A stretch of DNA of 64,000 nt. Source: Allohoeflea poritis. Lineage in GTDB: Bacteria > Pseudomonadota > Alphaproteobacteria > Rhizobiales > Rhizobiaceae. The DNA is taken from NCBI RefSeq assembly GCF_027889715.1, contig NZ_JAPJZH010000004.1, forward strand, positions 124,001 through 188,000. The letters run 5' to 3'. Position numbers and translations under genes: made by a program. The stretch's first letter is position 1, and each line of letters begins with the position of its first letter. The notes under the pieces are model-generated. The model did no database searches and was not told where the DNA came from. It saw only the letters and a program-made list of their open reading frames with translations. Of the stretch, positions 37,599 through 44,946 are shown piece by piece.

Positions 37599-37614
37599 AT
37601 AAAGAAGTCTTTAT
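37599..37614 (-). promoter_or_regulatory. Palindromic operator candidate upstream of ahcY
   Basis: ATAAAGA and TCTTTAT form a perfect 7+7 inverted repeat with a 2-base centre in an AT-rich island, between ptsH and ahcY. The shape resembles binding sites of small ArsR-type regulators of methionine and SAH metabolism (SahR class). That assignment is from memory and not proven. Confidence 0.4.
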
Positions 37615-37654
37615 GTGATTCGACCCGGCGATCCGCTGAAATACGGTCGAACCG

Positions 37655-37945
37655 TCAAGAATCCTCGCCGAACCGGTTGGCGATGAGTTCGTCGAGCGCA
37701 TCGAGCGCCTTTTGCGCATCCGGCCCCGACGCGGACACGTCAATGCTGCATCCGGGGCTGGCGGCGAGCATCATCAGGCCCATGATCGATGTTCCGCCGA
37801 CACTCATGCCGTCCTTGCTGACCAGGATCCGGGCATCGAAGCTTTCGGCAAGCTGCACGAATTTCGCCGATGCCCGGGCATGCAGGCCGCGCTTGTTGAC
37901 GATGTCGAATGTGCGGACGAGCTGTCCGTTCACGGCCTCATCCAT
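37655..37945 (-). CDS. ptsH: HPr-like phosphocarrier protein (nitrogen-type PTS)
   Basis: This 96-residue phosphocarrier has the active-site His22 in NKRGLHARASAKF. The regulatory Ser53 lies in GGTSIMGLMML, the site that HprK phosphorylates in other bacteria. With EIIA and hprK nearby and no sugar permease, it belongs to a regulatory PTS rather than a sugar uptake system. The start is uncertain: ATG 37945 has no clear ribosome site, because a terminal inverted repeat begins only four bases upstream. A GTG five codons in is a possible alternative. Confidence 0.93.
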   Translation of the reverse strand: MDEAVNGQLVRTFDIVNKRGLHARASAKFVQLAESFDARILVSKDGMSVGGTSIMGLMMLAASPGCSIDVSASGPDAQKALDALDELIANRFGEDS

Positions 37946-37949
37946 GCGC

Positions 37950-37982
37950 TAGAGCGAGTTGTGAGTAGATTGACGCATTTGA
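37950..37982 (+). repeat. Terminal inverted repeat, left copy (33 bp)
   Basis: TAGAGCGAGTTGTGAGTAGA and the following 13 bases are the inverse of the sequence at 38221-38253 with one mismatch (position 15, G here, T there). It bounds the 304-bp element on the ptsH side. Confidence 0.9.
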
Positions 37983-38220
37983 CCGCGGCGATTTTGGTCT
38001 CTGGCCAGGCGGGTTGCGCGCCGTGGTGTTCCCTCACCACAAGCGCGAGCCAACGACGCCAGGGGCCAAAATCGCCCGGCCCATTCCATATTCGTTTCCA
38101 ATATCTTCTCCCCTTTCGAGGGTGGGGAAAATCGGCCCATCGGACGTCGTTGCGCCGCTTGCCCGATGCGCTGCATCGCGCTGCGCGACGCGCCTAGCCG
38201 AGTGAACCGGTTTTCCTCCA

Positions 38221-38253
38221 TCAAATGCGTCAATCTAATCACAACTCGCTCTA
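38221..38253 (-). repeat. Terminal inverted repeat, right copy (33 bp)
   Basis: Identical in all 33 bases to the single copy at 44914-44946 and the inverse of the left copy. Read on the minus strand it begins TAGAGC, and its first three bases are the stop codon of the EIIA gene. Confidence 0.9.
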
Positions 38254-38652
38254 TTTTCCGCTCAGGACGCGGCTCGCGACATTGATATATTTGCGGCCCG
38301 CTTCCTGCGCTTCCGCAAGCGCCTTTTCCATGTCGTTGTCGGTGCGAACGCTTGCCAGCTTGATCAGCATGGGAAGGTTGACGCCGGCCACCACCTCGGT
38401 GCGGCCGCCATCCATGACCGAGATGGAAAGGTTTGAGGGTGTGCCGCCGAACATGTCCGTCAGGATGATGACACCTTCGCCCTCGTCAGCCTTGGAGACA
38501 GCCTCAATGATGTCCATGCGCCGCTGGTCCATGTCATCCTCGGGGCCGATCGAAACCGTTTCCAGCAATTTCTGCGGCCCGACAACGTGCTCCAGCGCGT
38601 TCCGGAATTCTTCGGCGAGCTTGCCATGGGTGACAAGCACTAATCCAATCAT
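38251..38652 (-). CDS. PTS EIIA component of the mannose family
   Basis: This 133-residue protein starts MIGLVLVTHGKLAEEF, with phosphorylated His9, and has VIILTDMFGGTPSNLS in the centre, both hallmarks of the EIIA-Man fold. In this lineage it stands alone, without EIIB/C/D permease genes, and accepts phosphate from HPr as a regulatory output. ATG 38652 matches the family start; the frame is open 17 codons upstream. The stop TAG is the first triplet of the inverted repeat at 38253. Confidence 0.93.
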   Translation of the reverse strand: MIGLVLVTHGKLAEEFRNALEHVVGPQKLLETVSIGPEDDMDQRRMDIIEAVSKADEGEGVIILTDMFGGTPSNLSISVMDGGRTEVVAGVNLPMLIKLASVRTDNDMEKALAEAQEAGRKYINVASRVLSGK

Positions 38653-38804
38653 CTGCAACTGCTCCTGCGGTCGTGACCGGTCAGAACCCGCGCCATACTG
38701 CACCCAGATGGAGGCGATTACCAGTGGAATGCCGCGTGCGCCAACGCGTCAATCGTTAAGGCTTAAATGTGCATAGGCGTCAATTCAACAGGTTTTGATT
38801 GCAT

Positions 38805-44314: not shown

Positions 44315-44931
44315 GCACGCTGGCGGAGGGAATCTCCTATTATCCGGACCATTTCGACCGTCCGGCACAGGAAGCGCTGGTCGATGCCATCCGCGACGTC
44401 GTGCGCGTTGCGCCGCTTTTCGTGCCTGTCATGCCCCGGACCGGCAAACCCATGCATGTACGCATGAGCAATTGCGGGCAACTCGGCTGGGTGACCGACA
44501 AGGACAACGGCTACCGTTACCAGCCAACCCATCCACAGACCGGGCGCGCCTGGCCGCCAATCCCGCCCGCGCTGCTGCAACTGTGGGACGATGTGGCCGG
44601 TTTCGATGCGCCGCCGGAGGCCTGCCTGATCAACTTCTACGGCGATAGCGCAAAAATGGGCCTGCACCAGGACCGGGACGAACAGGAGTTCGCAGCGCCT
44701 GTCGTTTCGGTGTCGCTGGGCGATGATTGCCTGTTCCGGATCGGCGGAACGGAACGCGGCGGGCCGACGCAATCGATGCGGTTGCGCAGCGGCGATGTCA
44801 TTGTGTTGGGCGGGCCGTCGCGGCTGCGCTATCACGGTGTCGACCGGATTTATCCGGCGAGTTCGACCCTGCTGAAAGACGGCGGTCGCATAAATCTGAC
44901 CCTGAGACGGGTGTCAAATGCGTCAATCTAA
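44311..44931 (+). CDS. alkB: AlkB-type Fe(II)/2-oxoglutarate dioxygenase (alkylated-base repair)
   Basis: This 206-residue enzyme oxidatively removes methyl groups from 1-meA and 3-meC in DNA. Iron ligands are His119 and Asp121 in MGLHQDRDEQEF and His175 in RYHGVDRIYP. The 2-oxoglutarate Arg pair is in NLTLRRV (199-201), and NFYGDSAKMG matches E. coli AlkB. The last five residues (SNASI) and the stop codon come from the 33-bp repeat starting at 44914, so the native C-terminus may have been altered; the catalytic core is complete. Confidence 0.93.
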   Translation: MSTLAEGISYYPDHFDRPAQEALVDAIRDVVRVAPLFVPVMPRTGKPMHVRMSNCGQLGWVTDKDNGYRYQPTHPQTGRAWPPIPPALLQLWDDVAGFDAPPEACLINFYGDSAKMGLHQDRDEQEFAAPVVSVSLGDDCLFRIGGTERGGPTQSMRLRSGDVIVLGGPSRLRYHGVDRIYPASSTLLKDGGRINLTLRRVSNASI

Positions 44932-44946
44932 TCACAACTCGCTCTA
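44914..44946 (-). repeat. Single copy of the 33-bp terminal repeat, overlapping the end of alkB
   Basis: All 33 bases are identical to 38221-38253. No partner repeat or element interior is found beside it. It encodes the last five residues and the TAA stop of alkB and lies just before the glycan cluster. Confidence 0.9.

Follow-up and report, generated by a model that had tools for sequence, protein, structure and literature searches.

We find that the 304 bp filling the gap between ptsH and the EIIA gene of Allohoeflea poritis (positions 37950-38253 of the 64,000-nt stretch of DNA analyzed here, which we call the window) consist of a 300-bp mobile element with a TA on either side. From its ends and its target, we conclude that this element is very probably a MITE that is moved in trans by a transposase of the IS630/Tc1-mariner type. 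Having no gene for such an enzyme, the element probably borrows it; the transposase would bind the 27-nt end, excise the element, and paste it into a new TA. The parts of the locus and its neighbors are as follows.

37950-37951, TA target-site copy on the ptsH side; a single TA stands here in the sister genome
37952-38251, mobile element proper (GAGC...GCTC, 300 bp), delimited by the empty site in the sister genome (G002) and by dispersed copies
37950-37982, plus strand, left terminal repeat: 27-nt IS630-type end including the TA, then CATTTGA
37983-38079, hairpin arm 1, 97 nt, coordinates taken by hand from the fold
38080-38122, AT-rich linker that ends in a 12-nt hairpin, from the fold
38123-38220, hairpin arm 2, 98 nt, from the fold
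38221-38253, minus strand, right terminal repeat, identical at 26 of 29 positions to an IS630 3′ end of Sphingomonas sp. YR710
38252-38253, TA target-site copy on the EIIA side, which together with the element's first G makes the EIIA stop codon TAG
37655-37945, minus strand, ptsH (HPr), the downstream gene of the split pair (Pfam)
38251-38703, minus strand, EIIA-man gene (Pfam), with the insertion in its stop codon
38805-39380, HPr-kinase C-terminal match (Pfam)

The initial annotation, made from the sequence alone, had treated all 304 bp as one unit. The sequence (TAGAGC...GCTCTA) is as described, and the mobile part proves to be the inner 300 bp, the TA on each side being the target duplication. 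The 33-bp inverted ends were seen correctly, with one mismatch between the two 33-nt ends (32/33 alike), and the long internal stem reported at 37987-38005 with 38058-38076 is contained in the predicted fold. Pfam, which gives HPr and EIIA-man for the two flanking genes, agrees with the placement, and the EIIA stop codon was rightly assigned to the right end of the element, where TAG (minus strand, 38253-38251) is formed by the TA and the element's first G. The statement that the element has no coding capacity holds in that no Pfam match was found for it, while a mechanical open reading frame of 97 aa does lie inside (37949-38242, minus strand).

The features by which MITEs are recognized are found here: the element is shorter than 500 bp, encodes no transposase, carries terminal inverted repeats, occurs in many dispersed copies with differing flanks, and is bounded at this locus by a target-site duplication where relatives have an empty site. 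AT-richness, which is typical of MITEs and not required, is absent from the 300 bp as a whole (GC 0.59, versus 0.62 for the window); the sole AT-rich part is the linker (0.37 GC). Elsewhere in the window, a solo terminal repeat whose sequence is exactly that of the element's right arm is located at 44914-44946 (minus strand). No second repeat of this type lies close by in the window, and the solo repeat is the remnant of a second copy.

The initial annotation had named a non-autonomous transposon among its readings and had proposed a search for copies, holding that one and the same sequence at this locus in every relative, with no copies elsewhere, would tell against a mobile repeat. That search returned many dispersed copies, and the transposon reading has been upheld by these copies, by the uninterrupted locus in relatives, and by the IS630-like ends. 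In the source genome (5.58 Mb, 54 contigs), BLAST gives 57 matches, of which 28 are near-complete (counted by hand, window copy included), and the end pattern TAGAGCN{18,22}CATTTGA gives 73 matches versus 1 for the reversed control. Copies are present in all eight genomes of the genus, the source genome included, and at least 17 of 151 genomes in a wider draw from the family have a match (the source genome and one genus-mate among them), with no more than four candidates scored per genome shown. One other genus (G127) has nearly full-length copies at 75-77% identity; several other genera in the family draw match a single hairpin arm only. The stretch at about 38145-38199 in arm 2 is among the best-conserved interior sequence and occurs alone in other genera, e.g., with at least five matches in one genome (G119); it is a possible protein site. 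A plasmid search with end types a and b gave no match, and one with the whole element gave a single match, of 55 bases of arm 2, in Agrobacterium.

For comparisons among copies, we extracted complete elements that have TAGAGC-like ends and whose two arms agree at 24 or more of 33 positions. Such elements came from 60 of 108 scanned loci, giving 59 after the duplicates L137 and L138 were dropped and the window copy was added. The other 48 loci hold partial copies, have an end outside the pattern (L002, L015, and L033 among them), or exceed 450 bp (L161 and L162).

The insertion itself is documented by the empty site. The EIIA-ptsH junction is uninterrupted in seven of seven genus relatives, which answers the question, raised in the initial annotation, of whether orthologous gaps lack the element. 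Relative to the sister genome G002, GGAAAATA-GCG has become GGAAAATA[GAGC...GCTC]TAGCG, i.e., 300 bp and a second TA have been gained. We also searched the joined flanks of 12 further copies in G002 and in a second genome (G001). Four of the 12 (L003, L006, L024, and L008, the last with a 1-nt alignment gap two bases past the junction) have a TA empty site in G002, and for L003, L008, and L024 the TA is also present in G001. As for the remainder in G002, L018 has the TA with indels just ahead of it, the L013 site reads TG, the junctions of L012 and L004 are gapped or diverged, and a usable spanning alignment is lacking for L009, L014, L016, and L028. Among the 59 complete elements, 54 have TA at both ends, and the target is YTAR in 55 and CTAG in 21; the element ends were partly picked by pattern, the flanking bases not. 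IS630 elements prefer CTAG targets. In ISY100, a member of the family, insertion is nearly confined to TA, which is duplicated, as described in an excerpt of PMC2170065.

The second line of evidence is the resemblance of the MITE ends to those of alphaproteobacterial IS630 elements of ~1.05 kb. At a first look, the IS630 loci L079-L085 yielded no pair of inverted ends. We assembled 18 IS630 elements of 1027-1060 bp in which both ends are TAGAGC-like, 14 or more of 28 positions are shared, and the transposase end can be identified; the first two features were the selection criteria. When IS630 ends (43) are compared with MITE arms, the mean best match is 18.9 of 27 positions, versus 15.0 for shuffled ends and 15.6 for the highest mean of 200 shuffles. 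Both kinds of end share G23, the stop-codon position, and C27, with C27 fixed in the MITE set by the search pattern and TAGAGC fixed in both sets. A scan of 84,980 species, one genome each, for a MITE-like end combined with the IS630 3′-end signature returned 11 stretches, and the best cognate end lies in Sphingomonas. There, the IS630 3′ end of strain YR710 agrees with the right arm of the window copy at 26 of 29 positions and with the left arm at 25 of 29, the scan pattern having fixed most positions; among the six free ones, 12, 13, 15, 25, and 26 agree with the right arm and 9 does not. Read by hand, this end codes for ...NSGYASI-stop, and the YR710 IS copies found are cut by contig ends or stand beside other sequence. 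In the 18-element set, GAATC (a CcrM-type GANTC site) occupies positions 23-27 of 14 left ends (e.g., in L165, L169, and L171) and of none of the 18 right ends.

The two ends of an IS630 element can be told apart, and we used this to ask from which of them the MITE arms derive. The transposase stop codon sits inside the repeat of IS630 right ends. Of the 18 right ends, 9 have TTA at positions 16-18, and none of the 18 left ends does; this TTA recurs in 58 of 101 distinct MITE arms and in both arms of 36 of the 59 elements. A weight matrix of right versus left ends, correct for 34 of 36 ends in leave-one-out, classes 83 of 101 distinct arms as right-like. Counted over the 59 elements, right-like arms are fewer on the left (47/59) than on the right (53/59), and in 46 elements both arms are right-like. 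The GAATC that marks IS left ends occurs in 9 of 101 MITE arms. Since both arms of 46 of 59 elements resemble the transposase-3′ end, both MITE ends probably descend from that end of one IS630, and the simplest reading would be that a single IS630 right end was duplicated in inverted orientation; the remaining 13 of 59 elements do not fit such an origin cleanly. A common descent from the transposase-3′ end would account for MITE ends being more alike than the two ends of an IS630. The agreement between the two ends is 22-27 of 27 positions in the MITEs and 14-23 of 27 in the 18 IS630 elements, both sets having been selected for end similarity. On a tree of the core, end type changes 15 times, compared with a minimum of 8 and with 24.4 for shuffled labels; with 8 of 41 inner branches well supported, the tree gives weak support to repeated switching of end type.

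Between these ends, the element is strongly folded. As proposed in the initial annotation, the fold was predicted for both strands, and on each it is far more stable than shuffled sequence (−171.2 kcal/mol and z = −12.6 on the plus strand, −170.2 kcal/mol and z = −11.8 on the minus strand; 0 of 100 shuffles as low on either). The ends pair in a 33-bp stem from which two hairpins of ~98 nt emerge, giving a three-way plan. When folded singly, 47 of 63 sequences (two duplicate loci included) form two and only two arms that reach 60 nt or more, the usual length being 95-100 nt; among the remaining sequences, the majority either fold the interior into a single domain or contain insertions or deletions. 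The 403-nt variants looked like three-arm forms, a reading that we rejected, as a second repeat of ~101 bp is nested at a CTAG of arm 1. This nested repeat (L034/L138 and L043/L137, G003) is itself TAGAGC-ended, has two hairpins, and stands in opposite orientations in the two copies.

In an alignment of 44 copies, which omits the 182-, 213/214-, 264-271-, 332-, and 403-nt forms, 98.0% of the cells are paired, versus 90.9% in shuffles; the structure was derived from the same alignment, and the shuffles do not preserve relatedness. Slid versions of the structure all pair below 39%. Double changes occur in 35 of 87 pairs, of which 17 belong to the terminal stem and 18 to the interior. Departures from pairing, scored on a structure predicted without G-U pairs, are equally split over the whole element (36 G.T and 35 A.C); divided by hand, they number 29 G.T and 18 A.C in the interior versus 7 G.T and 17 A.C in the terminal stem, counted over cells that are not independent events. 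Because the double changes keep pairing without strand bias, we infer DNA-level maintenance of the palindromic hairpin interior, and the strand-neutral departures speak against selection on one RNA strand across the whole element.

How the palindrome is kept is a separate question. We give about an even chance to its being a by-product, in which an inverted duplication was followed by template switching or gene conversion that keeps the arms alike, with hairpins that have no function. The overall strand neutrality of the pairing fits this reading, as does the covariation of the terminal arms within a copy, which differ at 5.9% of positions within one copy and at 24.8% between copies. So does a trace of the duplication in the interior: arm 2 of the window copy weakly resembles arm 1 when read in inverted order (a level reached by 1 of 300 shuffles), and such inverted similarity is seen in 3 of 11 elements compared. 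Pure repair would not obviously be expected to yield a fixed length, and yet arms of ~98 nt are kept in Rhizobium and Aminobacter elements that can barely be aligned with the window family. More tentatively, and in our view rather improbably, the hairpin arms may serve as a DNA device that extrudes under supercoiling or at the replication fork, shortens the path from end to end, and helps the transposase pair the ends. Such a device would explain both the strand-neutral covariation and the retention of ~98-nt arms in families whose interiors hardly align, and, if it exists, the same core would be reusable with different IS630 end types.

The insertion took place at the TA in the stop codon of EIIA, re-created the stop as TAG, and placed 302 nt between EIIA and ptsH; the locus is a case of a MITE landing harmlessly in a stop codon. 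More broadly, an open frame of 100 codons or longer stops at the TA in 17 of 24 copies in this genome, versus 29 of 69 YTAR sites drawn from the window only (Fisher P = 0.019) and 5 of 11 YTAR sites in a smaller control from the same flanks. A comparison of stop-free frames across the joined flanks was uninformative (19 of 23 junctions, versus 94% of 460 random points). The ptsH-side end of the 304 bp lies 4 nt from the ptsH ATG. In genus relatives, as read by hand, 3 nt separate the EIIA stop from the ptsH start in five genomes, and the two codons share one base in the other two. In the window, the sequence now preceding the ATG is CTCACAACTCGCTCTAGCGC, in which an obvious purine-rich ribosome site is absent. 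The insertion may affect HPr expression, and from these two observations it is a reasonable guess that HPr translation is reduced or uncoupled, in that translational coupling to EIIA would be lost.

We consider it very unlikely that the element is a local regulatory RNA of the EIIA-ptsH transcript, conserved for setting the HPr level. The fold is very stable (on both strands), its pairing is conserved among copies, the location is within an operon-like gene pair, and in the interior alone G.T departures exceed A.C. Against this stand the element-free junction in all relatives, the 28 near-complete copies in the genome, and the equality of G.T and A.C over the whole element. In addition, Rfam returns one weak match in 37600-38700 (14.8 bits, versus a gathering score of 380), and the sole promoter-like and sole terminator-like matches both lie outside the element. 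The suggestion of the initial annotation that an RNA structure sets the EIIA to HPr ratio is therefore abandoned, and a local RNA regulator is rejected, given the empty junction in relatives and the strand-neutral departures.

It remains to consider which transposase acts on the element. The source genome, a 54-contig draft, contains no intact IS630, and so no intact cognate transposase; we found there one DDE_3 (PF13358) fragment, at a contig end. DDE_3 matches are present in four of eight genus genomes. The IS630 at L083 (G003) ends in TAGAGCCTGTCGCG, and relatives of its transposase are found in 107 of 199 genomes of the family. We also observed that GGTCTAATCGACATTCAGGATTCATTTTTG adjoins the right flank of L007 and the left flank of L010 (both MITE copies) and the IS630 relic L079, all at contig ends; it is probably the end of another, collapsed multi-copy IS. 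Transposases of the IS5/IS427 type likewise duplicate TA. That such a system mobilizes the element, the likeness to IS630 being chance, is highly improbable: the absence of an intact IS630 from the genome and the IS-like end GGTCTAATCGACATTCAGGATTC beside two MITE copies and an IS630 relic, where contigs end, would suit it, but it leaves unaccounted for the G23, the stop-codon position (and the pattern-fixed C27) common to IS630 ends and MITE arms, the 26/29 match to the YR710 end, and the TA targeting that is the habit of the IS630 family, as far as the excerpted PMC2170065 describes it.

The palindromic interior is of wider interest. A study of Mos1 presents a model that, by its own account, leaves the full-length palindromy of most MITEs unexplained, and data that suggest palindromy is unneeded for mobility (PMC2642840). 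The well-kept hairpin shape makes this question testable in the family described here. Recognition of the ends and palindromy of the interior can be tested separately, since many copies show compensatory changes, one core occurs with several end types, and there are sister families of the same geometry whose interiors hardly align.

Among the matches listed in a search of open-licence literature (titles and starts of abstracts), we found no published name for the 300-bp repeat, which may be identical with an old rhizobial repeat under another name; RIME and CIR were compared by their descriptions. The CIR (Caulobacter CcrM-associated intergenic repeats) are likewise alphaproteobacterial, with 5′-TA termini and two hairpin arms joined by a linker, and they differ in their length of ~110 bp, their GANTC, and their lack of terminal repeats, a distinction drawn from the description in an excerpt of PMC2229807 only. 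A GANTC site in a hairpin loop and the absence of a terminal repeat are not what we see: GANTC is absent from the window copy and from 45 of 60 elements, and the window element has a terminal stem. The RIME (Rhizobium-specific intergenic mosaic elements) are dispersed rhizobial intergenic repeats with conserved secondary structure, again likened by description (PMC2573895, in excerpt).

The IS630/Tc1-mariner elements, of which ISY100 is a studied example, share insertion at TA and its duplication (PMC2170065, in excerpt), and the terminal 27 nt of the MITE share the design of IS630 elements, from which the MITE differs in having no transposase gene and in its nearly identical ends. The RUP (repeat unit of pneumococcus) of Streptococcus with IS630-Spn1 is a comparable pair: as described in excerpts of PMC2229807 and PMC3049150, RUP is a small TA-ended MITE with IS630-like ends and a tight fold in which the ends are paired. 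It is 107 bp long and AT-rich, whereas the window element is 300 bp long, has 59% GC and a three-way fold with two ~98-nt hairpins, and belongs to a family with several end types. The same geometry is shown by a 273-bp repeat of Rhizobium leguminosarum/johnstonii plasmids and a 275-bp repeat of Aminobacter niigataensis (L117:1501-1773, L116:1501-1773, and L118:1501-1775), which have no annotation of their own in the records. The Rhizobium element occurs at 344 places in 179 plasmid records, with at least 80% of it present in 126. The interior arms of these repeats cannot be aligned with those of the window element, the nearest approach being a borderline similarity (Z = 3.6-5.1) between Aminobacter arm 1 and one G003 element of the window's family. 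They have in common with it the TAGAGC ends, the three-way fold, and two arms of 95-100 nt (95 and 99 nt in the Rhizobium element, 100 and 98 nt in that of Aminobacter).
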